Below, in pieces: positions 3,802-58,679 of a DNA stretch of 64,000 nt (within the stretch, counting starts at the first letter, position 1; each line of letters starts with the position of its first letter). The notes beneath the pieces are model-generated. The model was not told where the DNA came from. It saw nothing but the letters and a program-made list of their open reading frames with translations, and searched no databases. The position numbers and the translations under genes were made by a program. Origin of the DNA: Chitinophagaceae bacterium (GTDB lineage: Bacteria > Bacteroidota > Bacteroidia > Chitinophagales > Chitinophagaceae). The DNA lies in contig CANJQU010000008.1 of the NCBI GenBank assembly GCA_947476485.1, forward strand, positions 1-64,000, written 5' to 3'.

Positions 3802-4761
3802 CTATAGTTGTTTTGATAGTTCATTCCAGTCAGGTTGCACAGGTAGCCAATGGACCTTTTGTAACGCCTTTTTTATACTACGGTTGCTATAGAAGTTTCC
3901 CTTTTCCTGCATGAGCACCGGCATTTGTATCAGTTGGCTGTAGCACACAAGCTCCGTCCAACTGCGGTTTTTGAAGTGCTCAAAAAAAGAAGCCAGCAAT
4001 GGTCTCACTTCTTTCAGGTTCCAGTAGTGGGTGATGTATGGTGCCGCTGCCTTCACATTGCCCGCCTGCTGAAAGTAAACAGAGAATGCAAATTGCTCCA
4101 TTATATGCTTGGGGAAGTTAGGGTATTGGTTATCCGTAAACGCAAGTACTTCATCGAGCTGGTGGTTGTCCTTTGTGTTAAACCCCAGTACACCTGCATT
4201 CCACATCGCAAGATCATGAACAGGCGTGCCGTTCACTTTTTGCGAAACGTTCTTTCGTAAATAGGTATCAAGTTTCGCAAATATGCTGTTGCCACGTTCA
4301 CTAACCACACCCTCTCTTACATGCATAAACTGTCTGCCTGCGCTAATATCTTTGAACACCTGTGCCAGCCGCCCTGTAAATACGGCATCCGTATCTACAT
4401 ACAATATGTTACCATGCCTGTCTTTTACAAAATCTTTGAGCAATTCAATTTTTACACGATGTACAAAATCTATTTTTCCTTTCCATTGCTTTATAGTGGC
4501 CTCATCTATCTTACGGTAGTGCAGCGGCAGCGGACAATCCTTAAAAGAGCTGAACCATGCGGGATCGTCGGTGTATATCCATACTTCGGTATTGGCAAGA
4601 TCTTCCGGTTCACATTGGCGGCTCAGCGACAACAGCGCATATGCGCACTCCAGGAAAATAGCTTTATTTCCATAGCACTGAAAAACGATATAGTTACCCC
4701 CAAACCCACTTACATGTTTGCCGTTAGGTTGCCGGGGGCTTTCTCTTGTTACTTCACTCAT
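3802..4761 (-). CDS. Hypothetical GT-A-like glycosyltransferase
   Basis: This 319-residue soluble protein has a central ILYVDTDAVFTG segment; the DTD triplet in a hydrophobic strand context is typical of the metal/nucleotide-sugar site of GT-A-fold glycosyltransferases. The N-terminal YGNKAIFLECAYALLSL and a region ending YTDDPAWF resemble the nucleotide-binding half of that fold. No signal peptide or membrane segment is seen. It lies 68 nt downstream of hutH on the same strand, without functional linkage. The family is not firmly recognised; a sugar transferase acting on a cell-surface or storage glycan is an inference from the DxD motif only. Confidence 0.5.
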   Translation of the reverse strand: MSEVTRESPRQPNGKHVSGFGGNYIVFQCYGNKAIFLECAYALLSLSRQCEPEDLANTEVWIYTDDPAWFSSFKDCPLPLHYRKIDEATIKQWKGKIDFVHRVKIELLKDFVKDRHGNILYVDTDAVFTGRLAQVFKDISAGRQFMHVREGVVSERGNSIFAKLDTYLRKNVSQKVNGTPVHDLAMWNAGVLGFNTKDNHQLDEVLAFTDNQYPNFPKHIMEQFAFSVYFQQAGNVKAAAPYITHYWNLKEVRPLLASFFEHFKNRSWTELVCYSQLIQMPVLMQEKGNFYSNRSIKKALQKVHWLPVQPDWNELSKQL

Positions 4762-44308: not shown

Positions 44309-44566
44309 TTATTTTATCTCTTCATATTCTGCTTCTTCCTCGCCTGCAGCATGCGTATTACTTTTCCTCACCGGCGGCGCATAGCACCCCTGTGTGCCGC
44401 AACATCCGGTGTCCATAACTGCCTGGTACAGGAAGAAGATGCTGAACAGTCCCATGGCCCAGTCCTTGCTTTGAATTCCCATAACTATTAACATGATACC
44501 TATTCCCAACCGCATTATGCGCATCAGGTGCCAGTTCGTGAACAGGCGTTGTTTCAGATCGCTCAT
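44309..44566 (-). CDS. Small membrane protein with TGCCGTQGC motif
   Basis: An 85-residue protein with one or two hydrophobic segments ([12 protein letters not shown] and [14 protein letters not shown]) then [14 protein letters not shown], a Cys cluster that could bind metal or carry sulfur, and a charged tail. The layout resembles YgaP-type membrane proteins of rhodanese operons. It overlaps the preceding rhodanese gene by four bases (ATGA), so co-translation is likely. Family name not recognised. Confidence 0.65.
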
Positions 44567-44877
44567 TTCTCGAATTTTTTTAGATTATACCAGCTTCCGG
44601 CATTGTGAACTTCATTAAATCCATTTGCCTTCAGCATTGCCTTTGCCGAGCTGCTGCGCATGCCCGATGCGCAACAGGTGATCACCGGCTTGTCTTTCTT
44701 AAGTTTGGCCATTTGGCTGCCGAGTGCTTGCAACGGTATATTTACTGAACCCTTTATATGACCCGATGCATACTCTCCGCTTGTGCGCACATCCACTATT
44801 GTTGCACCGTTCGCTATCATCTCTCCCAGGTCCACTTTTGGACCCATACCGAATAATTTCTTGATTGTCTCAAACAT
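44563..44877 (-). CDS. Single-domain rhodanese
   Basis: A 104-residue rhodanese: TIVDVRTSGEYASGHIKGSVNIPL, read as DVRTSGEYASGHIKGSVNI, and active loop CASGMRS after a second Cys. Six-residue loops ending in Arg are typical of sulfurtransferases active on thiosulfate or persulfide. It is short enough to be cytoplasmic with no signal peptide. Three bases separate it from the preceding rhodanese gene. Confidence 0.9.
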   Translation of the reverse strand: MFETIKKLFGMGPKVDLGEMIANGATIVDVRTSGEYASGHIKGSVNIPLQALGSQMAKLKKDKPVITCCASGMRSSSAKAMLKANGFNEVHNAGSWYNLKKFEK

Positions 44878-44880
44878 TGC

Positions 44881-45168
44881 TTAGTTGTTTTTGTAATAGT
44901 TTACGTTTGTCCATGAGCCACCGTTGATACAGGGTATCCCGTTCTGGCTCAGGAATATGGTTGCCTGGCCGCTCCTGCCGCCTGAGGCGCAGCAAAGAAC
45001 AATAGGTCCCATTTTTTTCAGTTCGTCGAGATGCTGCGGAATTTCATTCAGCGGTATATTAATGCTGTTTGCTACATGCCCGCCCATGAATGCTTCACGG
45101 GATCTCACATCAATGATCTTTGTTTTATCCGACTTTAATAGCGCTGATATTTCTGACATTTCCTGCAA
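44881..45168 (-). CDS. Single-domain rhodanese
   Basis: A 95-residue rhodanese with DVRSREAFMGGHVANSINIPL and active loop CASGGRSG. It differs from the following rhodanese in the loop (SGG versus SGM), so the two could have distinct substrates or acceptors. The ATG at codon 4 is an alternative start. Starts four bases after the DUF6132-like gene. Confidence 0.9.
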   Translation of the reverse strand: MQEMSEISALLKSDKTKIIDVRSREAFMGGHVANSINIPLNEIPQHLDELKKMGPIVLCCASGGRSGQATIFLSQNGIPCINGGSWTNVNYYKNN

Positions 45169-45171
45169 TTT

Positions 45172-45387
45172 TTAGTTATTATCTGTTTGTTTGGGTTTCT
45201 CTCTCTTAAACATGCTGAAGAACAAGCTTCCCATCACCGCTCCATACAGCGAGCTGTTCAGCGGGCTGGAGGTTATGGTACAATTGCCGGATGCACACCC
45301 CACGAAATACCAATAACACCATCCGGCAATTGTACCGGTAACCAGTCCTGCTAATTCCAATCTGTATTTTAAGATCTTTGCTTTCAT
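45172..45387 (-). CDS. DUF6132-like small membrane protein
   Basis: A 71-residue protein with two hydrophobic segments and a conserved CASGNCTITSSP turn, the mark of the DUF6132 family found with rhodanese genes in Bacteroidota. I start at ATG 45387, codon 39 of the longer open frame, because the upstream part is unlikely to be translated. Two cysteines in the turn could take part in thiol chemistry at the membrane. Confidence 0.7.
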   Translation of the reverse strand: MKAKILKYRLELAGLVTGTIAGWCYWYFVGCASGNCTITSSPLNSSLYGAVMGSLFFSMFKREKPKQTDNN

Positions 45388-45522
45388 CCTTCGATCCGCT
45401 TTTATTCTTTTTCGTACACAAAATTCGCTGGTAAAATGCGCTCTTTGTGGAACATTTGTTGGATAGCGCAGCAATTTTCCAGAAGAAAACGTTAAATGCA
45501 AAACACATGCTGCCCCAACGCA

Positions 45523-45729
45523 TTATTCTTGTTTACCCCTGGTACTGATACCAAAAGGGAGATACAACGGACAGACGCCAATAAAACTGGTGAGGATAAA
45601 CACAACTGATAAAGCGAGTAAAATGATTGCCACAGTACCGCCAATAACATTAGTAAAATATAAAGCGATTACAATAATAGCGATCAGTATACGTATCATA
45701 CGATCAGCATTTCCGATGTTCTTTTTCAT
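45523..45729 (-). CDS. DUF2892-family membrane protein
   Basis: A 68-residue protein with an N-terminal NADRMIRILIAIIVIAL helix and a second membrane helix ending SFIGVCPLYLPFGIST, the family signature of DUF2892 (YgaP-like inner-membrane proteins). These proteins usually accompany rhodaneses. It begins the operon just after the Crp-type gene and is likely controlled by it. Confidence 0.85.
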   Translation of the reverse strand: MKKNIGNADRMIRILIAIIVIALYFTNVIGGTVAIILLALSVVFILTSFIGVCPLYLPFGISTRGKQE

Positions 45730-45797
45730 AAATTTTGGTTTTGATTTATGATGTAAAGGTCGGATGCCTTTTGCGCACGGTTTGGAACATATGTTCC

Positions 45798-46406
45798 CTA
45801 ACTCCCGATAAGTTCTATAACATTCCTTCCCAGTTTCAGGATGTTCTTAGACTCCATGGTGCGCAGCAGGCGGCTGATGGCTTCCCTGTGCGTATGCAGT
45901 TCATCGGCAATTTGCTGGTGAGTTATGTATAGTGCCTTTGTTCCTGCTGCGCGCGTGCGCTCCCGCAGGTAGTGCAGCACTTGTTTATCCATATTGCTGA
46001 ATGCAATAAGATCAATGACATCTATTAACTCTGCAAAGCGGCTGCCGTATGTGCTGTTCACATAGGTTTTCCATTCCGGATATTTAAACCAGTCTTCAAC
46101 TAGGTTTGCTGGTATCTGCAGTATCTCACTGTCTTCCTCAGCTATCGCTTTTACCATGCTTTTTTTATTTGCCTGGCAGCAATTTATTGCTAGGGCACAT
46201 GTCTGGCCGGGGTACAGGTGATACAGGAATATTTCTTTCTGTTCTCTTTCCCGAAGTATGCGCAGCACTCCTTTTTCTACAATAGGCACAAAGATCACTT
46301 CCGCGCCCGGCTCCATCAGTACCGTGTCCCGTGTTACGTGTTTTATTCTTCCGGATTTTTTGATGTCTTCCTGCAACCGTTTGTCGGTGAATAGAGACTG
46401 GACCAT
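45798..46406 (-). CDS. Crp/Fnr-family regulator
   Basis: A 202-residue regulator with an N-terminal cyclic-nucleotide-binding-like barrel and a C-terminal winged helix-turn-helix (ITHQQIADELHTHREAISRLL). The barrel carries TCALAINCC, three cysteines in nine residues, a plausible thiol sensor rather than a cAMP site. It sits upstream of the rhodanese/thioredoxin genes on the same strand and divergent from the inorganic-carbon island, so it may control both. That pairing is inference; no operator was identified. Confidence 0.88.
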   Translation of the reverse strand: MVQSLFTDKRLQEDIKKSGRIKHVTRDTVLMEPGAEVIFVPIVEKGVLRILREREQKEIFLYHLYPGQTCALAINCCQANKKSMVKAIAEEDSEILQIPANLVEDWFKYPEWKTYVNSTYGSRFAELIDVIDLIAFSNMDKQVLHYLRERTRAAGTKALYITHQQIADELHTHREAISRLLRTMESKNILKLGRNVIELIGS

Positions 46407-46651
46407 GTTTTAGAATTGCCCGGTTACCACAGACTACTCTGCGGGGCTGCTGTAAAGTTAGACTATTGGATACGAACAGTTTACAAACAACAGATGGAGA
46501 TTGTATTTAAGATCCGCGTATCAGAATACCCGGCAGTTTGATGTGGACTAACGAAAATGCCCTTTCTATCCGGGTGATTAGCCACGCGTTAACATTTTTT
46601 TATCTTGCATTGTTCTTCGCTATAATATTTTCGCCTTTCTTTGTGAAGCAA

Positions 46652-46969
46652 ATGCGCAAAACACTGGCCATATTATTTCTTATCATTTTCTCCCTTCAGA
46701 TTTTACCGCTGCAGGTGATAGGTAAGCTATTGAGTTCAGGACAGAATACAGAGGAGGTGCACGACGATGGAGGTCCTGAAGATGGTCCGGGTGCTAAGCT
46801 CGCTAAATTTGGCGACGATCTGATCAACTTGTACCACCACACTCCTGATCTTTTTGCCAGCAGGCAGTATTTTGACGTACAGGTCACTGCCTTCATCCAC
46901 ATGGCAGAATCCTTACCTTCCGTTCACATTGCCGAGATTCCCTCGCCCCCGCCCGATACTTTTATTTAA
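46652..46969 (+). CDS. Small exported or membrane-anchored protein A
   Basis: A 105-residue protein with a hydrophobic N terminus (LAILFLIIFSLQILPLQ), no clear lipobox, then an acidic Gly/Pro-rich stretch (VHDDGGPEDGPG) and NLYHHTPDLF, ending in SPPPDTFI. Several His residues could bind a metal. I start at ATG 46652 because the copy at 53307 starts at the same place and upstream residues are not conserved. The second copy is about 94 percent identical. It lies directly upstream of a SulP gene, as does the other copy, so a role with the transporter is suspected. No family recognised. Confidence 0.75.
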   Translation: MRKTLAILFLIIFSLQILPLQVIGKLLSSGQNTEEVHDDGGPEDGPGAKLAKFGDDLINLYHHTPDLFASRQYFDVQVTAFIHMAESLPSVHIAEIPSPPPDTFI

Positions 46970-47099
46970 TTGTCATCCGCCATTACCTGGTGTGTCTCCG
47001 TGTGCTATGCTCATGCTGTAGCCGCGTTATTTTTCTCAACTACATATTTTTTCTACCTGTTGCGCCTGGCTATGGCTGCAGCTATAAAGCATACATTTT

Positions 47100-48743
47100 A
47101 TGGAATCAAATGTTTTTTCAAAAAGGCATTTAAAAAAGGACTTCCTCGCAGGTCTTATCGTATTTCTTATTGCCCTGCCATTGTGCCTGGGCATTGCACA
47201 GGCCAGCCACGCACCGCTTTTTGCCGGCGTAGTTGCGGGCATTGTTGGCGGTATTGTCATTGGGTCACTTAGCGGATCACATCTTAGTGTATCGGGACCC
47301 GCAGCAGGCCTTACGGCGATTGTATTGGTAGCTATAAACGAAATGCAGGTCTTTGAAATATTCCTCTGCTCCGTCCTCATTGCCGGGGTCTTACAGATCA
47401 TTCTTGGCTATATGAAGTCGGGAGCTATTGCAAACTACATTCCTACCAGTGTGCTGGAAGGAATGCTCGCCGGCATAGGACTTACGATCATCATCAAACA
47501 GTTGCCTGATGCCGTTGGTTTTGCCCGCGACAAGGCCGCAGTAATGGTAGACGCCGAGGATGGCTTCTTTGAAAAAACTATTGAAACAGCAATGCATAAT
47601 ATACAACCTGGTGCGCTTATCATTTCCCTTACAGGGTTAGTATTGCTCATCTTGTGGCAGACAAAAGCATTCAAAAAAATACAGATCGTACCCGCTGGGC
47701 TCGTTGTGGTACTTATAGGGACATTATTGAATGAAATCTTCAAAAGCACAGCACCACAATTGGGCCTAGACAGCTCACACCTGGTGAAATTGCCAATAGC
47801 GGCTACTGCTGCCGATTTTTTCAAACAATTCTCTTTCCCCGATTTTAATGGTTTTAAATCAGTTAAGGTTTGGGAGACGGGCGTTGTAATTGCGGTCGTT
47901 GCATCGATAGAAACCCTGCTGTGTATCGAGGCAACAGATAAGCTTGACCCTCAAAAGCGCTACACACCTGCCGACAGGGAACTGAAGGCGCAGGGGGTGG
48001 GTAATATTGTAAGCAGCTTGCTTGGTGGGTTACCGATCACATCTGTGATAGTACGTTCATCTGCCAATGTTAATGCAGGTGCACAAACAAAACGCTCTGC
48101 TATAATCCATGGTATACTACTGCTGCTCTGTGCTGCAACAATACCTGCATTGCTTAATCTTATCCCGAAGGCGGCGCTGGCGGCTATTCTTTTATTCACA
48201 GGCTACAGGCTGTGCAGGCCGTCTGTTTTTAAACATATGTGGAAAGGCAAATGGACACAATTCATACCCTTTGTAGCTACAGTAATAGGCGTTGTCTCAC
48301 TTGATCTTTTAAAAGGTGTCGGTATCGGTCTTGTGCTCAGTATATTCTATACACTCAGGCAGAATATCCGTATCCCGTACTATTACGAGCGCACCACATC
48401 GGGCAACGGAGATGTAATAACGTTGGAGCTCGCCCAGGAAGTATCCTTTCTCAATAAAGCCAGCATAAAGGAGACGCTTAATAACCTGCCACCTAACAGC
48501 AAGATCATTATTGACGCCAGCAATACAGCCTATATAGACTATGATGTGCTGGAGCTGATCCGTGATTTCTATGGCAGCCGTGCGGTGGACAACAATATAA
48601 AATTATCGCTTGTCGGGTTCAAAGATACTTATGACCTCCCTGCGGATATGGTAGAAAAAAATGGCAAGGCGAACGAAAAGGACGTCAGGTCAAAAGGTAA
48701 TTATGAAAAATTGCTGGCGCAGCTAGTTCAGGGAATAAAGTAA
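47100..48743 (+). CDS. SulP-family anion transporter with STAS domain, copy A
   Basis: A 547-residue transporter with 10-12 hydrophobic segments, the SulP core signature near residues 20-75 (LPLCLGIAQASHAPLFAGV, then LSGSHLSVSGPAAGLTAIVL) and a C-terminal STAS domain (IIIDASNTAYIDYDVLELI). SulP proteins carry sulfate, bicarbonate or other anions; the DabA, DabB and carbonic anhydrase neighbours favour bicarbonate, probably with sodium or protons, while sulfate remains the alternative. It is about three-quarters identical to the copy at 53761. Ends 18 nt before dabA. Confidence 0.9.
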   Translation: MESNVFSKRHLKKDFLAGLIVFLIALPLCLGIAQASHAPLFAGVVAGIVGGIVIGSLSGSHLSVSGPAAGLTAIVLVAINEMQVFEIFLCSVLIAGVLQIILGYMKSGAIANYIPTSVLEGMLAGIGLTIIIKQLPDAVGFARDKAAVMVDAEDGFFEKTIETAMHNIQPGALIISLTGLVLLILWQTKAFKKIQIVPAGLVVVLIGTLLNEIFKSTAPQLGLDSSHLVKLPIAATAADFFKQFSFPDFNGFKSVKVWETGVVIAVVASIETLLCIEATDKLDPQKRYTPADRELKAQGVGNIVSSLLGGLPITSVIVRSSANVNAGAQTKRSAIIHGILLLLCAATIPALLNLIPKAALAAILLFTGYRLCRPSVFKHMWKGKWTQFIPFVATVIGVVSLDLLKGVGIGLVLSIFYTLRQNIRIPYYYERTTSGNGDVITLELAQEVSFLNKASIKETLNNLPPNSKIIIDASNTAYIDYDVLELIRDFYGSRAVDNNIKLSLVGFKDTYDLPADMVEKNGKANEKDVRSKGNYEKLLAQLVQGIK

Positions 48744-48761
48744 CCGATAAACACCGCAGTC

Positions 48762-51344
48762 ATGATCAGTACAGCAAGCACTGTCGACGAGACCAACGTT
48801 CATGCAGGGAAAGGTGAGCATGCCAGGCATCACTTTGATGTCAAGCATGTGCTCCATGAGATGAAGCATTACCTGCCTTCGCAGACCCCCATAAAAGATT
48901 TTATTCATCATAATTCATTGCATGCTTTCCAGCAAATGAAGTTCTTCGATGCCATTTTTAAGGCATCGAAGATATTTGGTTTCCAGGCCACACTGCCACT
49001 ACATGAATTCAGGCAACTGTATCAGGTGGGTCGTATTAAAAATGTTGTTCTCGAACGTGTTATCGCCGAAAGAAAGGGCACACAGCTTTTGGCTGAATGG
49101 AAAGAAAATCTGGTCATAAAAGAATATGACGACATTACTAAGCCACGTATAGGCTTACTACGTAATAACTGGAAAAGCGAACACCGTATAGACCTGGACG
49201 CGCTTGTGCACCCATTGCTGTATCGTGTTATATGCTCATACCTCGATCAGGGCATCGCCACCTGGCAGTTCCCGGTAACGAATTTGGGTTTTTTAGAGGC
49301 CATCAGATCACTCGAAAAAAATAGCTACACCAGCTTCTTTAAAACAAAAAGAGCAAAAAGTCTCTTACTTGAAGGGAACTGCACGATTCCTGGTCTCCTG
49401 AAAATAGTAGTTGGCAATGAGGATTACTATGAGCAATACCTCTACGACCAGCAGTTTAGTCATAAGGGCTGGTCGGGCATGGTATCTGTTGTAGAAGACT
49501 TCCCTGCAACATTGTACGATCAGAGAAAGGTATCTCTGAACGACTTCATTATTTTTGAATTACTGCTGGAGATTGATGCCCTCGACAAAGCATTGGGCAA
49601 ATGGCGACCGCTGGCGGAAGCAAAAAAAAGCAGGCCGGTGGATCTTTTCGCTGATGTCCAAACTACAGAATTGCATGAAGTGCTTACCCTCTGGCAGCAT
49701 GCATTTGAATGGAGTTATTATGACGAAGTGCTGGCCGGCCTGGCCTCCGGAAAACAAACATCCCAGCCTGTTACTGCAAAGACAAGCTTCCAGGCAATGT
49801 TCTGCATAGATGAGCGCGAATGCTCTTTCCGCAGGTATGTAGAGCAGTGCGCACCGGATGCCGAAACCTTTGGCACACCAGGATTCTTCGGTGTGGAATT
49901 TTACTTTCAGCCGGAGAACGGTAAGTTTTATGACAAGCTCTGTCCGGCTCCCGTTACCCCAAAGTACCTCATTAAGGAATCAGGCGTAAAAGGTGAAAAG
50001 AAACATGAACTGCTTTATACCAGCAAGACCCATACTTTACTGCCAGGCTTTTTGCTGTCATTCCTATTTGGTGCTTTATCGGCAGGCCGCTTATTCCTTA
50101 ACGTATTCCGACCTAAAATGAGCCCTGCTATTTCCAATGCTTTCGGGCATATGGACAGGCAGTCAACACTTACTATAGAGAATAAAGATATTGCTGACCG
50201 CGAGAATGATCTGCAAATAGGATTTACTATAGCAGAGATGGCGGCACGGGTAGAAGGTGTTTTAAGATCCATAAGCCTCATAAAAGACTTTGCGGCTGTG
50301 GTGTATGTAATAGCCCACGGGTCCAGCAGTGCCAATAATCCCCATCATGGCGCGCACGACTGTGGCGCATGTAGCGGTCGTCCCGGCTCTGTCAATGCCC
50401 GTGTGTTTGCGCATATGGCCAATCACTCCGGCGTTAGGGTACTTTTAAAGGAAAAAGGAATAGATATTCCTGCAGATACACAGTTTGTAGGTGCGCTCCA
50501 CGACACCGCTGGTGACGAGATAGAGTTTTACGATGAGCATGTGCTGAACGCGCAAAATCGCCGGGACCATGAGTTGCACCTGGTGGTGTTTGAAAAAGCC
50601 CTTGATCTGAACGCAAAGGAAAGATCGCGCAGGTTTGCATCGATCGATACAAAAGGCAACCTGAAGCAGGTCCGCAAAGCGATCAAGGACAGGTCTGTTT
50701 CCCTGTTTGAACCTCGCCCGGAATTAGGACATGGTACAAATGCACTCTGTATAGTAGGGGGCAGGCAGATGACGAAGAACATCTTCCTGGACCGACGGGC
50801 ATTCATGAACTCCTACAATTATAAAACAGACCCGGAGGGTACCATTCTGTCGAGGATCATGGCCCCATTGGGACCAGTATGCGGGGGCATCAATCTCGAA
50901 TATTACTTTTCAAGGGTCGACAATCATAAGTTGGGAGCAGGAACAAAGCTGCCGCATAATTTGATGGGGCTCCTTGGTGTGGCTAATGGCGCTGACGGCG
51001 ATCTGCTACCCGGCCTGCCGCTGCAGATGATCGAAGTGCATGACCCGGTGCGTCTGCTGCTCATAGTAGAACATTTCCCTGACGTGGTTTTAAAGACCGT
51101 ACAGGCCGTACCGGCAATGTATGAATGGTACATAAATGAATGGGTGCATCTCCTTGCCATTGATCCGCAGACACGTAAGTTCCATTATTTTAAAGAAGGT
51201 GTTTTCATAGAGTATGAACCGTTATTAAAAGCAGTGGGCACAGTAAACAATATGGTTGAGCTGGTGGAGTCTGCAAAGATCATGCAGACAAACCAGACGG
51301 TAGATGCAACGCTGGAGAACCTGCCTGTTCAGGTATTAAACTAA
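48762..51344 (+). CDS. dabA: DabA, inorganic carbon transporter subunit (DUF2309)
   Basis: An 860-residue soluble-type protein of the DUF2309 family, the DabA half of the DAB complex that accumulates bicarbonate by energy-coupled CO2 hydration. The four zinc-site residues line up with those known in the family: C348 and D350 in FCIDERECSF, H519 in VIAHGSSS, and C534 in HDCGACSG; the 2- and 15-residue spacings match. Motif ECSFRR follows the first pair. It sits between SulP-A and dabB in the order dabA-dabB. Nothing is missing or truncated, so activity is expected. Confidence 0.92.
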   Translation: MISTASTVDETNVHAGKGEHARHHFDVKHVLHEMKHYLPSQTPIKDFIHHNSLHAFQQMKFFDAIFKASKIFGFQATLPLHEFRQLYQVGRIKNVVLERVIAERKGTQLLAEWKENLVIKEYDDITKPRIGLLRNNWKSEHRIDLDALVHPLLYRVICSYLDQGIATWQFPVTNLGFLEAIRSLEKNSYTSFFKTKRAKSLLLEGNCTIPGLLKIVVGNEDYYEQYLYDQQFSHKGWSGMVSVVEDFPATLYDQRKVSLNDFIIFELLLEIDALDKALGKWRPLAEAKKSRPVDLFADVQTTELHEVLTLWQHAFEWSYYDEVLAGLASGKQTSQPVTAKTSFQAMFCIDERECSFRRYVEQCAPDAETFGTPGFFGVEFYFQPENGKFYDKLCPAPVTPKYLIKESGVKGEKKHELLYTSKTHTLLPGFLLSFLFGALSAGRLFLNVFRPKMSPAISNAFGHMDRQSTLTIENKDIADRENDLQIGFTIAEMAARVEGVLRSISLIKDFAAVVYVIAHGSSSANNPHHGAHDCGACSGRPGSVNARVFAHMANHSGVRVLLKEKGIDIPADTQFVGALHDTAGDEIEFYDEHVLNAQNRRDHELHLVVFEKALDLNAKERSRRFASIDTKGNLKQVRKAIKDRSVSLFEPRPELGHGTNALCIVGGRQMTKNIFLDRRAFMNSYNYKTDPEGTILSRIMAPLGPVCGGINLEYYFSRVDNHKLGAGTKLPHNLMGLLGVANGADGDLLPGLPLQMIEVHDPVRLLLIVEHFPDVVLKTVQAVPAMYEWYINEWVHLLAIDPQTRKFHYFKEGVFIEYEPLLKAVGTVNNMVELVESAKIMQTNQTVDATLENLPVQVLN

Positions 51345-51353
51345 CTACACAAT

Positions 51354-53225
51354 ATGTATCAAGTATTCTATCTCTATATATGGTTCCCTTTGCTGGCTTA
51401 TTTCATAAGCTTGTTTGTGCCGCGTACAAAAGAGAAAATAATATCGGGGCTTGCCATTGCCACAACTGGTATTCACCTGGTTTGTCTATCGATCTTTACC
51501 GCTTTCTGGGCCATAGACGGTGGGAAATCGTTAAACATAGACCATATACTGCTCTATGAAGGCGATGAATACCGCATAGCCATAGAATTTTACTTTGACA
51601 AGATCACAGCCGTTTTCGCTTGCATTGGTTCCCTGCTAACCTTCCTGGTAGCCGTTTACAGCAAATATTTCATTCATAGGGAAGGTGGGTTCAAACGGTT
51701 CTTTAATACCATCATTCTTTTCTTCTTCGCATACAATACACTCATATTCTCCGGCAATTTTGAAACATTGTTCGTAGGGTGGGAAATACTTGGTGTATGC
51801 ACCTTTCTGTTGGTATCGTTTTATCGTGAGCGCTACCTGCCCGTTAAGAACAGCATGAAAGTCATATCTGTATATCGCCTGGGCGATATTTGCCTGATGC
51901 TGGCTATGTGGATGAGCCACCACCTGCTGCATCGCAACATCTCTTTTCAGCAGCTCAACGATGGAGCAATGATTGGGGGTCTGGCGCAGACCCATTTTTG
52001 GGAGATCCTATTTATTTCATGTATGATATTGGTAGCGGCTGCAGTGAAGTCAGCTCAACTGCCGTTCTCTTCATGGCTGCCAAGAGCAATGGAAGGCCCT
52101 ACTACGTCAAGCGCTATCTTTTATGGTTCGCTATCCGTGCACATAGGTGTTTTTCTTTTATTACGCACTTACGGATACTGGGAGCACGTTGCTGCTTTCA
52201 AGGCGCTGGTCATTTTCACCGGCCTCTCAACAAGTATTGTTGCAATAAGTATTGCCAAGCTGCAATCTTCATTGAAGCCGCAGATCGCTTATTCCTCCAT
52301 CGCCCAGATCGGGCTTATGTTCATAGAGATCGCGCTTGGTTTTCATACGCTGGCGTTGTTCCATTTCGCAGGCAATGCCTGCCTGCGCACCTACCAGCTT
52401 TTGGTATCGCCGTCTGTACAGCATTACCTGATCCATGATATGTTTTTCAACTTCACCCCTAAGCCGCAGGTAAACAATGGACGTGCCTTTGCTAAGTTAA
52501 AAAACTCATTCTATTTGCTTTCGCTCAAAGAATGGAACCTTGATACGATGCAACACCGGTTTTTGTGGAGTCCTTTTAAGTGGATTGGAAGAAAGGTGGG
52601 CTTTCTTTCAGGCAAAGTGGCAACAGCAGCATTGATAGCGTTGTTCGCGTCTGGCATCTACTGTTATTATATGGAGACAACGATTCCCGTAGACGTTTTC
52701 AGTACTCTGCCCCTCGTTTTTTCGTTCATTGGGCTCATGCTCATCTTAAAGTCTTTCTCTGACAGGGGAGATGCAATGCATGCCTGGCTTTCAGTAGCTG
52801 GCGGGCAGTTGTTTATCGTCCTTGCGGTTGCACTGCATAATGAAGATTACAGCCATGGAGAGATACTGCTTTTACTCAGCGGCTCCCTGGTTTCGGCTGT
52901 CGTTGGATTCATCTGTCTGTATAAAGTACGGGTTATAGACCTTGATATAAGCCTCAGCAAGCATCACGGATATGTGTACGAGCAGCCAAAACTGGGATTG
53001 GTATTTCTCATATCCTGCCTGGGAATGATAGGTATACCTTTTACGCCGTCTTTTGTAGGTATCGATATTATGCTTACCAATATACATAAGCATGATGTGA
53101 TGTTGATCGTGTTCGTTTCCGTAGGGTTCTTATTTATGGAGCTGGCTATTCTCAGGATATATGCGCGCATATTTATGGGGCAGCATAAGAAGGCATTTCA
53201 TGCTATTGCTTCCAGGTCGGCATAA
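51354..53225 (+). CDS. dabB: DabB, NuoL-like membrane subunit
   Basis: A 623-residue membrane protein of the proton-conducting antiporter family related to NuoL/MrpA, with about 14 hydrophobic segments. It carries the core SAQLPFSSWLPRAMEGPTTSSA, listed by key residues KSAQLPFSSWLPRA and PTTSSA, a conserved Lys before the discontinuous helix, and later LQSSLKPQIAYSSIAQIGLM. In the DAB complex this subunit uses a cation gradient to drive CO2 hydration by DabA. Complex I subunits are absent nearby, so it is not NuoL itself. Starts nine bases after dabA. Confidence 0.9.
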   Translation: MYQVFYLYIWFPLLAYFISLFVPRTKEKIISGLAIATTGIHLVCLSIFTAFWAIDGGKSLNIDHILLYEGDEYRIAIEFYFDKITAVFACIGSLLTFLVAVYSKYFIHREGGFKRFFNTIILFFFAYNTLIFSGNFETLFVGWEILGVCTFLLVSFYRERYLPVKNSMKVISVYRLGDICLMLAMWMSHHLLHRNISFQQLNDGAMIGGLAQTHFWEILFISCMILVAAAVKSAQLPFSSWLPRAMEGPTTSSAIFYGSLSVHIGVFLLLRTYGYWEHVAAFKALVIFTGLSTSIVAISIAKLQSSLKPQIAYSSIAQIGLMFIEIALGFHTLALFHFAGNACLRTYQLLVSPSVQHYLIHDMFFNFTPKPQVNNGRAFAKLKNSFYLLSLKEWNLDTMQHRFLWSPFKWIGRKVGFLSGKVATAALIALFASGIYCYYMETTIPVDVFSTLPLVFSFIGLMLILKSFSDRGDAMHAWLSVAGGQLFIVLAVALHNEDYSHGEILLLLSGSLVSAVVGFICLYKVRVIDLDISLSKHHGYVYEQPKLGLVFLISCLGMIGIPFTPSFVGIDIMLTNIHKHDVMLIVFVSVGFLFMELAILRIYARIFMGQHKKAFHAIASRSA

Positions 53226-53306
53226 TATAGAGGTGCAACTGTTAACATATCTTTAGCCTGCCGTTTTTTTTAGCTATGGTATTTTCACCTTTCTTTGCCG
53301 AAGTAA

Positions 53307-53630
53307 ATGCGCAAACTACTGGCCATATTGTTTCTTATCATTTTCTCCTTTCAGATTCTTCCGCTGCAGGTGATAGGTAAGCTATTGAGTTCAGGCCAGA
53401 ATACCGAGGAGGTGCACAACGATGGAGGTCCCGAGGATGGTCCGGGTGCCAAGCTTGCTAAGTTTGGCGATGATCTGATCAACTTGTACCACCACACTCC
53501 TGATCTTTTTGCCAGCAGGCAATATTTTGATGTAAAGGTCACTGCCTTCATCCACATGGCAGATTCGTTACCTTCCGTTCACATTGCCGAGATCCCCTCG
53601 CCCCCACCCGATAGTTTCCGTTTCATTTAA
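53307..53630 (+). CDS. Small exported or membrane-anchored protein B
   Basis: A 107-residue near-copy of protein A: the hydrophobic N terminus, VHNDGGPEDGPG, NLYHHTPDLF and the SPPPDSFRFI tail are conserved. By eye there are about six substitutions plus a two-residue insertion, and third-position changes are mostly silent, so selection or gene conversion has kept it alike. It starts 81 nt after dabB and precedes SulP-B. The -7-like TTTCTTTG upstream (about 53296) is shared with copy A, suggesting each copy has its own promoter. Confidence 0.75.
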   Translation: MRKLLAILFLIIFSFQILPLQVIGKLLSSGQNTEEVHNDGGPEDGPGAKLAKFGDDLINLYHHTPDLFASRQYFDVKVTAFIHMADSLPSVHIAEIPSPPPDSFRFI

Positions 53631-53760
53631 TCGTCGCCCGCTATTACCTGGTGGTTCTCTGTGTGCTATGCTCATGCTATAAGCTTGCATATTTCCGACT
53701 CATCTATTTCATTTTCATGCTGTTGCCATGTTTATGGTACAGCTATAAATCACACATTTT

Positions 53761-55440
53761 ATGGAATCTGGTATTTTTTCAAAAAATAATTTAAAAAAGG
53801 ACTTCCTCGCAGGTCTTATTGTATTTCTTATTGCCCTGCCATTGTGCCTGGGTATAGCACAGGCTTGTCATGTGCCGCTTTTTGCTGGTGTAGTAGCGGG
53901 TATTGTTGGCGGCATTGTTATAGGGGCGCTTAGTGCATCCCATCTCAGCGTTTCGGGTCCGGCTGCCGGCCTTACAGCCATAGTGTTGGTGGCCGTAACA
54001 GAGCTGCCTGCTTTCGAAGTGTTTTTGTGCGCAGTTATTATTGCCGGGGTCATCCAGGTCATTATTGGTTACCTCAGGGCCGGCGCTATAGCCAATTATA
54101 TACCATCAAGTGTACTTGAGGGCATGCTGGCGGGTATTGGCCTTACCATCATCATCAAGCAGTTGCCGGATGCAGTGGGCTTTGCTAAGAACAAAGCTGC
54201 CGTAATGGTAGATGCTGATGATGGCTTTCTTATGAATACTATTACCACTGCCACACACAATATTCAGACGGGTGCAGTGGTTATTTCACTTGTTGGCCTC
54301 GTTTTGCTCGTCATTTGGCAGACCAAGGCTTTTAAAAAAGTACAGCTTATACCAGCTGGTTTGGTGGTGGTGCTGGTCGGAACCCTGCTCAATGCCATTT
54401 TCGCCGGATCTGCCCCTCAAATGGCCTTAGACAGTTCGCACCTGGTGATGTTGCCTATTCCCGCATCTTTCGGCGATTTCTTCAGGCAGTTTTCATTCCC
54501 TGACTTCAAAGGCTTTGCTTCACTGAAGGTTTGGGAAACAGGCATCGTCATTGCTGTCGTTGCCTCTATAGAAACCCTCCTCTGCATTGAGGCTACCGAT
54601 AAGCTGGACCCGATGAAAAGGTACACACCTGCCGACCGTGAGCTGAAAGCACAGGGTATCGGCAACATCATAAGCGGCTTTCTTGGCGGCTTGCCCATCA
54701 CCTCAGTTATCGTGCGTTCTTCTGCCAACGTTAATGCTGGCGCTAAGACAAAGCGCTCTGCTATTATTCATGGTGTGCTGCTGCTGCTCTGTGCGGCGTC
54801 AATACCAGCTTTGCTCAACCTGATACCAAAGGCAGCGCTTGCTGCAATACTTATATTTACCGGCTACAAACTCTGCAAACCAACGGTGTTCAAGCACATG
54901 TGGAAGGGTGGCTGGACTCAATTTGTCCCGTTTGTCGCCACGCTCGTAGGCGTTGTGTCGCTCGACCTGCTTAAAGGGGTGGGAATTGGCCTGCTGCTGA
55001 GTATTTTCTACATCCTTCGACAGAACATCCGCATCCCTTACTACTACCAGCGCAGCACTTTCAGCGAAGGGGACCTCATTAAGCTCAAATTGGCCCAGGA
55101 AGTTTCTTTCCTGAACAAAGCCAGTATCAAGGAAACACTCGAGAAGCTGCCACAAAACAGCAAAGTGATCATTGATGCCAGCCAAACGCAGTATATTGAC
55201 TTTGATATACTTGACATCATCAAGGAGTTTTATCACACACAAGCGAAAGAAAAACACATAGATTTATCGCTGGTGGGCTTTAAAAATGTGTATAAACTGC
55301 CGGCAACCATACCGGAGCGCGACATATTATCCGGTTTCCTCAACAAAAATGAAGTGCCTGTCCGTTCTTCGGGGGACCACAGAAAACTCCTTGCCCAATT
55401 AAAAAAACATCTAGGTAATAAAAATAAATCATCAGTATAA
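53761..55440 (+). CDS. SulP-family anion transporter with STAS domain, copy B
   Basis: A 559-residue SulP paralogue of copy A with the same core (LPLCLGIAQACHVPLFAGV, LSASHLSVSGPAAGL) and a STAS domain (VIIDASQTQYIDFDILDII). Differences cluster in the C-terminal 40 residues, where copy B has an extra DILSGFLNKNE stretch. Its stop codon overlaps the carbonic anhydrase start (TAATG), so the two are translationally coupled; this supports bicarbonate as cargo, since carbonic anhydrase would convert the imported ion to CO2 or back. Confidence 0.9.
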   Translation: MESGIFSKNNLKKDFLAGLIVFLIALPLCLGIAQACHVPLFAGVVAGIVGGIVIGALSASHLSVSGPAAGLTAIVLVAVTELPAFEVFLCAVIIAGVIQVIIGYLRAGAIANYIPSSVLEGMLAGIGLTIIIKQLPDAVGFAKNKAAVMVDADDGFLMNTITTATHNIQTGAVVISLVGLVLLVIWQTKAFKKVQLIPAGLVVVLVGTLLNAIFAGSAPQMALDSSHLVMLPIPASFGDFFRQFSFPDFKGFASLKVWETGIVIAVVASIETLLCIEATDKLDPMKRYTPADRELKAQGIGNIISGFLGGLPITSVIVRSSANVNAGAKTKRSAIIHGVLLLLCAASIPALLNLIPKAALAAILIFTGYKLCKPTVFKHMWKGGWTQFVPFVATLVGVVSLDLLKGVGIGLLLSIFYILRQNIRIPYYYQRSTFSEGDLIKLKLAQEVSFLNKASIKETLEKLPQNSKVIIDASQTQYIDFDILDIIKEFYHTQAKEKHIDLSLVGFKNVYKLPATIPERDILSGFLNKNEVPVRSSGDHRKLLAQLKKHLGNKNKSSV

Positions 55441-56069
55441 TGATAGACTATTCAGTAAAACCAAAAGCCGTAACGCCGGATGACGCGCTGCTCAGGCTTA
55501 AAGAAGGCAATTTCCGATTCATTAATAACATGCTGCAGCACAAAGATCTGCTTACCAGCGTAGACCAGACAAAGGACGGCCAAACCCCCTATGCAGCTAT
55601 ATTCAGTTGTATGGACTCCCGCACCTCTGCAGAGTTGGTCTTCGATCAGGGCGTTGGCGATATATTCAGCATACGTATTGCCGGTAATGTAATTACAGAT
55701 GGCGTGCTCGGCAGCCTGGAGTATGCCACCGCCGTTGCCGGCGCAAGTCTAATACTGGTAATGGGTCATACCAACTGCGGGGCTATAAAGGGTGCTTGCG
55801 ATCACGTGAAAGCCGGCCATCTCTCATCATTACTTGAGCGCATTGATCCGGCACTGGAGCGCGCAACGGCCCTCTTCCCCGATAAAGCCACAAGCGCAAA
55901 CAGTGATTTTGTAGCTGCTGTTACGAAGTTCAATATCGAACATGCTATGTCAGAAATATTGAACCGAAGCGACATGATACGGGATTTGATTGACAAGAAG
56001 AAAGTGGCAATAGCCCCTGCGGTTTACGATGTAGCCACCGGAAAAGTGAACTTTAATTCCTTCGATTAA
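55440..56069 (+). CDS. Beta-class carbonic anhydrase
   Basis: A 209-residue enzyme interconverting CO2 and bicarbonate. Zinc ligands are C57, H110 and C113, with the catalytic dyad D59-R61 in FSCMDSR, and HTNCGAIKGA. The GDIFSIRIAGN segment is standard for the class. The family lacks a signal peptide here, so it acts in the cytoplasm. Being cytoplasmic raises the question of how it coexists with DabA accumulation: a free cytoplasmic carbonic anhydrase can waste bicarbonate by leaking CO2, so it may serve supply of CO2-using enzymes or be regulated. Confidence 0.93.
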   Translation: MIDYSVKPKAVTPDDALLRLKEGNFRFINNMLQHKDLLTSVDQTKDGQTPYAAIFSCMDSRTSAELVFDQGVGDIFSIRIAGNVITDGVLGSLEYATAVAGASLILVMGHTNCGAIKGACDHVKAGHLSSLLERIDPALERATALFPDKATSANSDFVAAVTKFNIEHAMSEILNRSDMIRDLIDKKKVAIAPAVYDVATGKVNFNSFD

Positions 56070-56092
56070 GAAGTAACGTTACTAACAAAGCC

Positions 56093-56123
56093 ATAGGCTG
56101 TCCGTTTCGGGCAGCCTATTTTA
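56093..56123 (+). terminator. Rho-independent terminator of the carbon island
   Basis: ATAGGCTGTCC (56093-56103) pairs with GGGCAGCCTAT (56109-56119) with one G-U pair, loop GTTTC, then a T run. Confidence 0.85.
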
Positions 56124-56570
56124 ATATATCCCGGGCATAAACCGTCTCAGTTGACGAACTCTTTTCATCCGCACTCCAGCTACATATCCTAAGTCATCGA
56201 TGTAAACGCTCCTTTAACGGAGATTTATTAATGATATATTTAAGTCGCTTTTCACCAAAAAATTAGAAAGGCAAAACAATGACCTATATCATTTGGTAAC
56301 ATTAAATTAATACTGGGGTAATATTGGCGTAACACGATGGTAGTTTCTTTGCATCTAATTAGGCGCACGCGTTGGCAACATTTACTAAAGTGGGTATATA
56401 CTGCTCATTACTCTTTTCTTTAGCTGGGTTAGCCACGGCTCGATCCATTTTTTCCGTGGCAGATTTTAAACCCGGTGCACAGATGCAGTTAGTCGCTTGA
56501 CATGCTGCTACGGTTACGGCAAATGATTATTATTTCTAAAGATAGCTTAACTATATAAAAACAAAAGTCA
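56124..56570 (+). other. pst operon leader and control region
   Basis: Contains the tandem 11-nt units, a likely -7 element (TTTCTTTG, 56344-56351) and about 210 bases of leader, including a GCCACGG/CCGTGGC hairpin (56432-56460). No other gene is seen. Confidence 0.5.
56295..56338 (+). promoter_or_regulatory. Candidate PHO box of four 11-nt units
   Basis: Units: GGTAACATTAA, ATTAATACTGG, GGTAATATTGG, CGTAACACGAT, each 11 nt and contiguous. Three carry GTAAYA at the same offset. The array ends five bases before the -7-like element and replaces the -33 element, as PHO boxes do for PhoB. It precedes pstS. Confidence 0.5.
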
Positions 56571-57671
56571 ATGAAAATTTTAAAGTGTATAGCGTTTTCG
56601 GCCCTTGCCATCAGTGGAAGCATGTTCATGGCAAGCTGCGGCGGTTCAGGTAACGGGTCAAACGGCGACAACGTTTCAAACGCTGCTTCTGGCGATAACA
56701 ATAACATCCTGGGTGCAGGCAGCACATTCGATAACCCGCTCTTCTCGAAAATGTTCTCTGAGTACAATAAGATCAACGGCCTGAAGGTAAACTATCAGTC
56801 CATCGGTTCTGGCGGCGGCATCCAGCAGCTTACTGCAAAGACCGTTGATTTCGGCGCATCTGATGCCCCGCTCAATGGCAAACAGGACTCAGCTCTTTCT
56901 GGCCCGGCTATACATATCCCGGTTACCGCTGGCGCGGTTGTTGTGACCTACAATTTACCCGGCATAAAGGACACACTTTTGATGACACCCGACGTTTTAG
57001 CAAAGATTTTCCTTGGCAAGATCACCAAATGGAACGACCCTGCAATACAGGCGATCAACCAGGGCGTGAAGTTGCCGGCTACTGGTATTGTTGTATCTCA
57101 TCGCTCAGATGGTAGCGGTACCACTAACATCTTCACCACCTACCTTACTAAGGTAAATAAGGATTGGGAAGCTGGTCCGGGCAAAGGTTCCTCTGTTAAC
57201 TGGCCGGTTGGTCTGGGTGGAAAGGGTAACGAAGGTGTTGCCGGTTCCGTTAAACAAACTCCAGGCGGCATTGGTTACGTGGAATTGGCTTACGCTATAC
57301 AGAATGCAATGTCATTCGCTAAAATGCAGAACAAGGCAGGCAAATTCATCACGCCGAACATCGCCAGCGTTACTGCTGCTGCAAACATTGAAATACCTGC
57401 TGACGCAAAGGTATCCCTTACCAATACCGAAGCCGCCGACGGTTATCCGATCTCCGGCCTGTCATGGGTTATTATCTACAAAGAGCAGAAGTATGGAGAT
57501 CGCAATTCCGATAAGGTTACTAAAATGGTGAAACTGCTCCAGTGGATGGTGCATGAAGGCCAGCAATACAGCGCACCACTCAACTATGCTCCTCTTTCAG
57601 AAAAAGCAGTTAGCATAGCTGATGCCCAGTTGAAGTCGATCACCTTCGATGGCAAACCGGTATTGCAGTAA
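56571..57671 (+). CDS. pstS: Phosphate-binding lipoprotein PstS
   Basis: A 366-residue periplasmic receptor for phosphate import, membrane-anchored by the lipobox FMASC (Cys23). The binding pocket motifs are GAGSTFDNPLFSKMF, QSIGSGGGIQQL, DFGASDAPLN and SHRSDGSGTTNIFTTYL. It is the first gene of the pst operon, 19 nt before pstC. Expression should rise in low phosphate if the upstream box is a real PHO box. Confidence 0.95.
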   Translation: MKILKCIAFSALAISGSMFMASCGGSGNGSNGDNVSNAASGDNNNILGAGSTFDNPLFSKMFSEYNKINGLKVNYQSIGSGGGIQQLTAKTVDFGASDAPLNGKQDSALSGPAIHIPVTAGAVVVTYNLPGIKDTLLMTPDVLAKIFLGKITKWNDPAIQAINQGVKLPATGIVVSHRSDGSGTTNIFTTYLTKVNKDWEAGPGKGSSVNWPVGLGGKGNEGVAGSVKQTPGGIGYVELAYAIQNAMSFAKMQNKAGKFITPNIASVTAAANIEIPADAKVSLTNTEAADGYPISGLSWVIIYKEQKYGDRNSDKVTKMVKLLQWMVHEGQQYSAPLNYAPLSEKAVSIADAQLKSITFDGKPVLQ

Positions 57672-57689
57672 GATAGCAATTGCTTAATA

Positions 57690-58679
57690 ATGGAAGCGCA
57701 GAAAGATACTAATTTAGCTACCCGTCCGGAAGAGACATCCGGGCGGGTAGTTTCTATAAAAAAGCAGGGTACAGTGAGTAATACGAAACGGATAGATCGT
57801 TCATTTCGCCAGATCCGCGCCGAAAATGTTTTCAGGCGCACCCTGGTTATAGTGGCATTGTCTATGGTTGTATTGGTGCTCGGTATAATGCTCACGCTTA
57901 TCTGGCAGTCTACCTTATCTATCAGGTCCTCGGGAGTGGGTTATCTTTGGGGAAAGGTTTGGGATCCCGTTCGCGATATTTATGGCGCCTACCCCTATAT
58001 TCTCGGCACACTGCTTACTTCATTTCTCGCCCTTGTCATATCCATACCATTTTCATTTGCAGTTGGTGTCTTCCTTGGCGAGTACTACCCCAAAGGCTGG
58101 ATGTCAGACCTTCTGAAAAATACGGTTGAGCTTATTGCAGCAGTTCCTTCCGTCATCTACGGTTTCTGGGCGCTGGCAGTGCTGGTACCCATAGTCCGGG
58201 ATTTCGAAACAAAGATCGGTGTGGAACCAGTTGGTCTCGGCATCTTCTCCTCCTCGCTTATACTTGCGGTTATGGTTATTCCATATGCTGCATCACTGGG
58301 CCGGTCTATGATACAGATGGTGCCGGCCAACCTGAAAGAAGCCGCATACTCACTCGGCGCCACACGCTGGGAAGTGATCCGCTTCGTTATTTTTCCTTAC
58401 ACCAGGTCCGGTTTGTTCGCAGGTATACTTTTGTCACTGGGTCGCGCACTTGGCGAAACAATGGCTGTGACAATGGTCATCGGTAACACCAGCCTTATAC
58501 CCAAAAACATCTTTTCACCCGGCAATACCATGGCCAGCGTGATAGCCAATGAATTCACCGAAGCCGATCATCCTGTATATCTCTCGGCGCTTATAGAACT
58601 GGGCCTTGTATTATTCCTGGTTACCGTAGTCATTAATATGATCGGCAAAAAAATGATCAGCAGGTTCACAAACGACTAA
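57690..58679 (+). CDS. pstC: Phosphate ABC transporter permease PstC
   Basis: A 329-residue permease with six membrane segments and the ABC-permease EAA-type loop near EAAYSLGATRWEV, plus GRALGETMAVTMV. It forms a heterodimer with PstA in the inner membrane. The N-terminal 40 residues are an extra polar stretch (basic, TRPEETSGRVVSIKK) beyond the typical family length, of unknown use. Confidence 0.95.
   Translation: MEAQKDTNLATRPEETSGRVVSIKKQGTVSNTKRIDRSFRQIRAENVFRRTLVIVALSMVVLVLGIMLTLIWQSTLSIRSSGVGYLWGKVWDPVRDIYGAYPYILGTLLTSFLALVISIPFSFAVGVFLGEYYPKGWMSDLLKNTVELIAAVPSVIYGFWALAVLVPIVRDFETKIGVEPVGLGIFSSSLILAVMVIPYAASLGRSMIQMVPANLKEAAYSLGATRWEVIRFVIFPYTRSGLFAGILLSLGRALGETMAVTMVIGNTSLIPKNIFSPGNTMASVIANEFTEADHPVYLSALIELGLVLFLVTVVINMIGKKMISRFTND

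Follow-up and report, generated by a model that had tools for sequence, protein, structure and literature searches.

The closest described system to the locus analyzed here is DAB2 of Halothiobacillus neapolitanus (DabA2-DabB2, PDB 9rd0; PMC13144422; papers identified by PMC number are cited from excerpts), in which a PF10070 protein, DabA, is paired with a NuoL-like membrane protein, DabB. Mutations of Glu444 in the finger of this complex (E444A/Q) abolish activity, and H260A, H343A and K347A impair it; Leu658, strictly conserved in the 150 homologues surveyed in that work, is dispensable in DAB2 itself, and L658Q confers no free carbonic anhydrase (CA) activity (PMC13144422). In the "clade C" ybcC-nuoL operons of the COGNAT analysis, ybcC (dabA) lies 5' of the nuoL homologue and a SulP transporter gene is a neighbor, so that the SulP linkage of dabA-first operons has been in print since 2017; the passages of that paper on this clade do not discuss a CA, a leader open reading frame (ORF), or catalytic and coupling residues (PMC5700660). 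MpsAB of Staphylococcus exemplifies heterotrophs that grow in air by means of such systems, as an alternative to CA, and MpsAB and CA rarely coexist in one species (PMC8567241). For Schleiferia, another member of Bacteroidota, a genome note links a CA and a putative bicarbonate transporter to anaplerotic carboxylation (PMC4148732). Here we describe a seven-gene locus (positions 46652–56069, plus strand) in a 64,000-nucleotide stretch of a Chitinophagaceae bacterium genome (the window; contig CANJQU010000008.1, positions 1 to 64,000, assembly GCA_947476485.1) that combines dabA and dabB with two SulP genes, a beta-CA gene and two small ORFs. The neighborhood is ordinary for the kin of this DabA; the two features that are not ordinary are a re-wired DabAB and the leader-like twin ORFs.

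A PF10070 match above the cut-off (dabA, 48762–51344; 860 amino acids, 706 bits) next to a NuoL-like gene (dabB, 51354–53225; 623 amino acids; Proton_antipo_M, PF00361, 131 bits) assigns the two proteins to the DabA/DabB family. The initial annotation of this DNA had named DabA-DabB, two SulP transporters and a beta-CA, all of which are supported by Pfam matches, and had described the DabA zinc ligands as intact. Indeed, C348, D350, H519 and C534 are present and, along with R352, align with C351, D353, H524, C539 and R355 of the solved DabA2, that is, the zinc ligands and the Asp-Arg dyad are identical to those of DAB2. A scan of named genomes with a four-row DabA alignment produced 509 confirmed relatives, and the best 80 loci were read; their titles point mostly to Bacteroidota groups, with two from Methylotenera/Methylophilaceae and two labeled uncultured bacterium. 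The sample is biased by the Bacteroidota query, consists mostly of metagenome-assembled genomes and relies on mechanical, scripted gene calls. The DabA alignment comprises 81 sequences (the window protein and 80 ORFs of more than 800 amino acids from the 80 loci) and the DabB alignment 70 sequences (the window protein and 69 ORFs of more than 550 amino acids, with shorter ones dropped); these were compared with DAB2 plus 5 type-2 and 9 plasmid-borne DabAs (5 and 5, respectively, for DabB).

The zinc site and the Asp-Arg dyad are kept in all 81 DabAs of the branch, whereas the position of the finger Glu444 is occupied by Glu in none of the 81, compared to 14 of the 14 other sequences (5/5 type-2, 9/9 plasmid-borne). 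The finger stretch (window positions 422–452) lacks any acidic residue in 71 of the 81 proteins and contains one elsewhere in the remaining 10. Three further positions separate the branch: His replaces Leu658 in 81/81 (His657 in the window protein) versus Leu in 14/14 others, Pro replaces Ala376 in 81/81 versus Ala in 14/14, and Glu replaces Ser356 in 81/81 versus Ser in 12/14. The dispensability of Leu658 and the lack of free CA activity of L658Q in DAB2 warn against over-reading the branch-specific His. In DabB, the proton path is partly replaced (H260 by Tyr in 68/70, H343 by Asn in 65/70, K347 by Arg in 68/70) and partly retained (K310 in 70/70, H339 in 70/70, S256 in 65/70, with S316 being Ser in 39/70); the Ile151 position is Glu and Lys235 is kept in all 70. 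DabB here has about 622 residues compared to 551 in DAB2; the window protein contains the NuoL-type set Glu144/Arg175/Asp178/Lys232 and has Y257, N341 and R345 in the proton path. Judging from these residues, the branch belongs to the PF10070 family and is not of the DAB2 coupling type; the intact zinc ligands do not make this DabAB an ordinary DAB because coupling residues that are essential in DAB2 are missing, and the complex is probably a differently coupled carbonic anhydrase. The branch also deviates, at an essential coupling residue, from the mechanism that the 2026 structural work gave for DAB2 and might represent a natural second solution for energizing CO2 hydration.

The branch is split off with 100/100 support by a long branch in a 51-row DabA tree that included 36 of the 81 sequences and drew a tool warning of long-branch and composition effects. 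The gene order differs as well: dabA precedes dabB here, compared to dabB-dabA in the 9 plasmid-borne and 5 type-2 pairs. Given the ybcC-first order and the SulP neighbor, COGNAT "clade C" very probably is the same branch. The AlphaFold model of DabA (mean pLDDT 77.5) has a helix, 426–449, at the expected finger site and low confidence in parts of the active site; a Foldseek search with this model produced a best E of 0.95 in a library extending to 2026-04-08, from which 9rd0 is possibly absent, and its weak beta-CA matches are not evidence. The DabB model (mean pLDDT 85.1) retrieved complex I NuoL/ND5 chains, with a tight fit over about 360–370 columns (2.4–2.7 Å, four rows). Longer alignments exceed a root-mean-square deviation of 16 Å and leave unsettled the match between DabB Asp571, conserved in 68/70, and NuoL Asp400, which lie together in a very weakly aligned stretch that by itself scores about zero.

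The initial annotation considered the combination of DAB, SulP, CA and a twin small protein unusual and proposed a search for its conservation in other Bacteroidota. That search showed the opposite: the dab-SulP-CA run is what usually surrounds DabA of this branch across the loci read, and the claim of an unusual combination is rejected. Upstream sequence of 4.5 kb or more is available for 59 of the 80 loci, and in these the same-strand run with dabA includes SulP in 47, CA in 42, and SulP, CA and a small ORF together in 39, with none of these in 10. These are undercounts because of the contiguity rule (same strand, gaps below 500 bp); for instance, locus L072 was scored "none" although SulP and CA adjoin. 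The small-ORF label in the counts over the 80 loci is loose, since a profile score as low as 3 bits, or else a PP end, was sufficient for it. The commonest orders are small ORF-SulP-CA-dabA-dabB (20) and small ORF-CA-SulP-dabA-dabB (9); dabB immediately follows dabA in 75/80 loci, and the CA slot is occupied by either of two beta-CA subtypes. Two loci with Methylotenera and Methylophilaceae titles (L103 and L123) carry SulP-CA-dabA-dabB with DabA of the same branch in proteobacterial bins, behind a head ORF without a PP end, suggestive of either gene transfer or misbinning. In another genome (G140, L051:8405-10958(-)), dabA is divided into two ORFs.

Within the same family, 12 of the 147 genomes contain a DabA match at E 0.001, 11 of these above the cut-off (the own genome included). 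On reading, six of the 12 loci are of the window type and five of a second type, which has the order dabB-dabA and a LysR-like gene, identified by eye, in divergent orientation; the last is the fragment below the cut-off. The small protein is much more widespread, being found in 39/147 genomes (again including the own one). Within the fetched stretch, SulP lies behind 39 of its 42 matches, CA alone behind two and neither behind one; for the match in genome G097, one ORF intervenes between the small ORF and SulP. Hence the family has small ORF-SulP-CA as a resident operon, which mostly lacks DabAB.

The history of the window version can be traced through the two SulP genes, sulP1 (47100–48743, 547 amino acids) and sulP2 (53761–55440, 559 amino acids). 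In a 41-row SulP tree, for which 52 DAB-linked SulPs were thinned to 31, they are sisters (99/95) in a clade of nine that otherwise contains six DAB-free SulPs and one DAB-linked SulP (L075), and they adjoin (98/88) the SulP of the same-genus genome G097, which has no DabA match and a locus composed of the small ORF, a methyltransferase-like ORF, SulP and CA. The nearest DabA in the tree, in turn, is that of L075 (95/97), where the order is small ORF-SulP-dabA-dabB, with no recognizable second small ORF or CA in the rest of the contig. On the strength of the tree and of these two loci, dabAB lies inside the resident small ORF-SulP-CA operon, of which the small ORF-SulP part was duplicated locally, with dabAB either gained in this lineage or lost in G097. 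The DAB-linked label changes at least four times across the thinned set; DAB and SulP were thus joined or separated repeatedly, a pattern that favors a functional coupling of the two. The two small ORFs are themselves a duplicated pair with 93% DNA identity over 300 nucleotides (15 synonymous and 6 non-synonymous changes among 103 codons), compared to 71% between sulP1 and sulP2 (238 and 125 among 547 codons). The identity of the twin cassettes (46652–47200 and 53307–53861) peaks in the small ORF and the first codons of sulP. The lower divergence of the small ORFs probably reflects gene conversion rather than an RNA-level constraint.

The small ORFs are the second non-ordinary feature of the locus. 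As the initial annotation held, they encode an unrecognized twin protein; neither ORF matches a Pfam or NCBIfam family at E 0.01. The ORF small1 (46652–46969, 105 amino acids, starting at an inner ATG at 46652) has an N-terminal hydrophobic segment and ends with SPPPD (codons 46943–46957) followed by TFI and the stop; small2 (53307–53630, 107 amino acids) ends with SPPPD (codons 53598–53612) followed by SFRFI and the stop, so that PP and the stop are four and six residues apart, respectively. In 36 of 42 small ORFs this distance is two to three residues, and the tight spacing is therefore a trend of the relatives and not of the own genome. Across small ORFs, a hydropathy peak falls within the first 45 residues (by hydropathy alone) and the PP motif follows about 70 residues later; the family alignment has a conserved region just after the hydrophobic segment, and much of the remaining sequence varies. 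In the CA-first group (13 rows), conservation is 0.74 in the last 10 columns, compared to 0.59 in the first third and 0.50 in the middle.

A small ORF precedes the SulP/CA run in 48 of the 51 loci with room for it, being the first gene whether SulP or CA comes next, and 41 of these 48 end with PP within 12 residues. Counts made independently of the loose label agree: among small ORFs with a hydrophobic N-terminus, a C-terminal PP[PNDE] is present in 47/76 of those before SulP, CA or dabA versus 3/93 elsewhere, and without a hydrophobic N-terminus in 0/9 versus 1/113. Because the rows share ancestry, the Fisher p of 4e-18 should not be taken as a true probability. Strong ribosome-stalling triplets include PPP, D/PP/D and PPN (PMC5811046). 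The last PP is followed by N in 18, E in 12, D in 8 and another residue in 4 of 42 small ORFs (N, E or D in 38/42). We take PPE to be a strong stalling triplet too.

These properties resemble those of known arrest leaders. The criteria laid out in PMC10987492, namely, a small upstream ORF of unknown function, an N-terminal signal or transmembrane (TM) segment, a spacer of more than 30 amino acids and a conserved C-terminus, all describe the small ORFs, except that SulP and CA genes follow here, compared to sec and yidC there. Likewise, uA_LPPP (PMC10987492), CutF/CruR (PMC9973294) and the RAPP family (PMC12992588) share the small exported upstream ORF, the N-terminal signal or TM segment, the long spacer and the C-terminal proline motif; CutF/CruR precede metal-handling genes (PMC9973294), compared to SulP, CA and DAB genes here. 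The candidate leaders contain no RAPP motif and instead have PP[NDE] close to the stop. A literature search on leaders and DAB, SulP or CA, with subscription papers outside its scope, retrieved no paper on such leaders before these genes. We slightly favor a leader ORF over a part of the transporter as the likely nature of the small protein. Should these ORFs prove to arrest ribosomes, inorganic-carbon and anion transport would join the processes under nascent-peptide control.

Small ORFs of this kind also occur in other settings. In three loci (L112:19628-19909(-), L129:18899-19180(-) and L139:20081-20371(-)), a small ORF with a hydrophobic N-terminus and a PPPN end precedes a gene for 550–573 amino acids, which in L129, the one tested of the three, encodes an ABC transporter; HlyD- and TolC-like neighbors were seen by eye in L112. 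In a further genome, a weak profile match (L186) lies ahead of an ABC-like gene whose start is similar. In genome G519, two tandem small ORFs (L183:3963-4259 and 4347-4643(-)) stand before a single SulP-CA pair; an additional profile match in that genome is the start of a 204-amino-acid protein and not a small ORF. A phylum-wide search with the small-protein profile, scoring at most 12 candidates per genome, found matches in at least 7 of 395 genomes, of which six belong to the same family (the own genome included) and the seventh is weak, with internal stops.

The CA of the window (55440–56069, 209 amino acids; Pro_CA, PF00484, 130 bits) contains the beta-CA zinc motifs (CxDxR/HxxC) as CxDSR (C57) and GHTNCG (from residue 109), has no N-terminal hydrophobic stretch by hydropathy and is predicted to be cytoplasmic. 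Among the same-strand CAs near dabA, 53/54 have both zinc motifs and 1/54 is above the hydrophobicity threshold; thus, these enzymes are probably cytoplasmic, and the coexistence of a cytoplasmic CA with a transporter of dissolved inorganic carbon (DIC), in which the initial annotation saw competition with accumulation unless regulated, is a published conundrum, for which expression at different times is one suggested way out (PMC10880623). Compared to the species in which MpsAB and CA rarely meet, CA and DabAB share an operon here, and their presence in a single same-strand run in 42/59 loci makes the question of coexistence directly testable. SulP-carbonic anhydrase fusions were reportedly described by Felce and Saier in 2004. 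SulP is coupled to CA in both cases, and what differs here is that the genes are separate and joined by DabAB and the leader ORF.

The draft genome (4.58 Mb, 99% complete) contains one DabA, two SulP matches, both in the operon, two beta-CA matches, one of them elsewhere, and two biotin carboxylases, with no match for phosphoenolpyruvate carboxylase. The initial annotation had noted the lack of RuBisCO in the window, and this extends to the whole draft genome (0 matches) and to the DabA-bearing relatives (0/10), so that a carboxysome-based CO2-concentrating mechanism is rejected.

Taken together, these observations are, in our view and with moderate confidence, best explained by a re-assembled Bacteroidota inorganic-carbon operon under leader control that supplies heterotrophic carboxylases. 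The operon would be a local re-assembly of the widespread arrangement leader ORF-SulP-beta-CA-DabA-DabB. DabA, a beta-CA-like zinc enzyme, would sit on the NuoL-like DabB and hydrate CO2 to HCO3- at the expense of an ion gradient, by a coupling route unlike that of DAB2; the anion that SulP would carry through the inner membrane would most likely be HCO3-; the CO2/HCO3- balance would be set by the cytoplasmic beta-CA; and the three would jointly feed biotin-dependent and other carboxylases in a presumed heterotroph without RuBisCO. Such CO2/HCO3- supply is the most likely role and a plausible one. The small ORFs would encode exported or membrane-anchored leader peptides, and slow translation at their C-terminal PP[NDE] motif is the probable means by which they would regulate the genes that follow. 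A more far-reaching version, in which a distinct, differently coupled Bacteroidota CO2-hydrating complex was built for CA and SulP, with the whole operon under PP[NDE] arrest-peptide control that senses the envelope or inorganic-carbon state, seems doubtful to us; if true, it would amount to arrest-peptide control of carbon uptake. Several results weigh against the supply operon under leader control. The loss of DAB2-essential coupling residues means that net CO2 hydration is not guaranteed, and a CA beside a DIC pump should cause leakage (PMC10880623). Among the leaders, uA_LPPP, which is of the proline type, stalls ribosomes of B. subtilis well and those of E. coli hardly in vivo (PMC10987492), and the proline end of CutF, the nearest analogue, did not stall ribosomes by itself (PMC9973294). 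Structure prediction for 45 regions gave no signal of a messenger RNA fold that hides the following start, as SecM uses (a gain of 0.008 compared to 0.006 for shuffled sequences, p 0.48), and a third copy of the small ORF, on contig 185 of the own genome, has neither SulP nor CA behind it. Finally, the SulPs resemble BicA, the Na+/HCO3- transporter (6ki1), as members of the same family (PF00916, 202 bits each versus a cut-off of 23.2), and score only 135.6 and 116 bits with the BicA model, far below its cut-off of 880, with the TM8 Asp of BicA changed to Glu (Glu270) and a TM10 Gly to Arg. For a C-terminal STAS domain, their scores are 18.6 and 21.9 bits, just below the cut-off of 22.6.

The divergence from BicA leads to the possibility, which we consider unlikely, that the SulPs carry sulfate or another anion, with CA and DabAB linked for a different reason such as anion/HCO3- exchange or pH control. 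The best general model is "sulfate permease" (188 and 189.8 bits, under the cut-off of 380), Arg is present at the TM10 position in all 41 rows and Glu at TM8 in the six rows printed. We take the BicA Asp to be the Na+-binding residue and the combination of TM8 Glu and TM10 Arg to be a feature of H+-coupled sulfate carriers. The divergent cluster next to the operon (44309–46406, minus strand) also counts in favor of this reading; it comprises a regulator with a family match to Crp-like proteins, a pair of rhodanese-like ORFs and small membrane ORFs (the latter two kinds seen by eye). However, SulP is followed by CA and/or DabA in most loci read, and a rhodanese-like cluster was not seen among the 25 most recurrent neighbor clusters of the 80 loci, as judged by eye on nothing but the starts of the sequences. 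A separate sub-question is whether the small proteins are, instead of leaders, structural or regulatory subunits, bitopic, with a periplasmic PP[NDE] tail that binds SulP or another envelope partner. This is a serious, if tentative, alternative: the linkage to SulP/CA is nearly fixed (41/42), the region just after the hydrophobic segment is conserved, and a free C-terminal motif also suits protein recognition. Yet the small ORF leads regardless of which of SulP and CA it precedes, ORFs of this type also stand before the 550–573-amino-acid genes and, weakly matched, before the ABC-like gene, and much of its sequence varies.

DabAB could also run in reverse or uncoupled, dehydrating imported HCO3- and moving ions outward or acting as a plain CA, as the beta-CA-type His, the missing finger Glu and the NuoL-type ion pair might suggest; ion export by such complexes was proposed by the COGNAT authors in 2017 (PMC5700660). 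We regard this as quite improbable: the L658Q result in DAB2 (PMC13144422) implies that one residue says little, and the Asp571-Asp400 match comes from a very weak alignment. Less probable still is an energy- or pH-homeostasis module, in which DabB would admit protons, CO2 would be converted to HCO3- and exported by SulP, and the cytoplasm would be acidified under alkaline stress; this would account for the co-occurrence of CA, DAB and an anion carrier without RuBisCO, but surveyed autotrophs whose pH optimum exceeds 8.3 are reported to lack DACs (PMC10880623).

The layout of the window operon is compact. All seven ORFs are intact and on the plus strand, as originally annotated, in the order small1-sulP1-dabA-dabB-small2-sulP2-betaCA; the gaps are 130 bp behind each small ORF, 18 bp between sulP1 and dabA, 9 bp between dabA and dabB and 81 bp between dabB and small2, and sulP2 and the CA gene overlap. 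A scan for Sigma-70-like promoters was uninformative (13 sites versus 18.7 in shuffles), and an Rfam scan of 46000–56600 found no families at the gathering score. A consensus scan placed a terminator-like hairpin 3' of the CA gene (56093–56119, plus strand), with 12 pairs the longest in the scanned stretch, where such sites are barely above chance (14 versus 10.9 in shuffles). The third small ORF of the genome (L047:2453-2785, contig 185) has a PPPEC end and lies 3' of a fumarase-like gene; behind it is an ORF of 273 amino acids that matches no Pfam family at E 0.001, and the contig contains neither SulP nor CA. An actinobacterial plasmid, that of Mycolicibacterium aubagnense (L151), carries a dabB-dabA pair of the ordinary kind, and the second gene after this pair encodes a carbonic anhydrase. 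Downstream of the window operon (56571–58679, plus strand) are phosphate transport genes, pstS by family match and then a permease-like ORF by eye.

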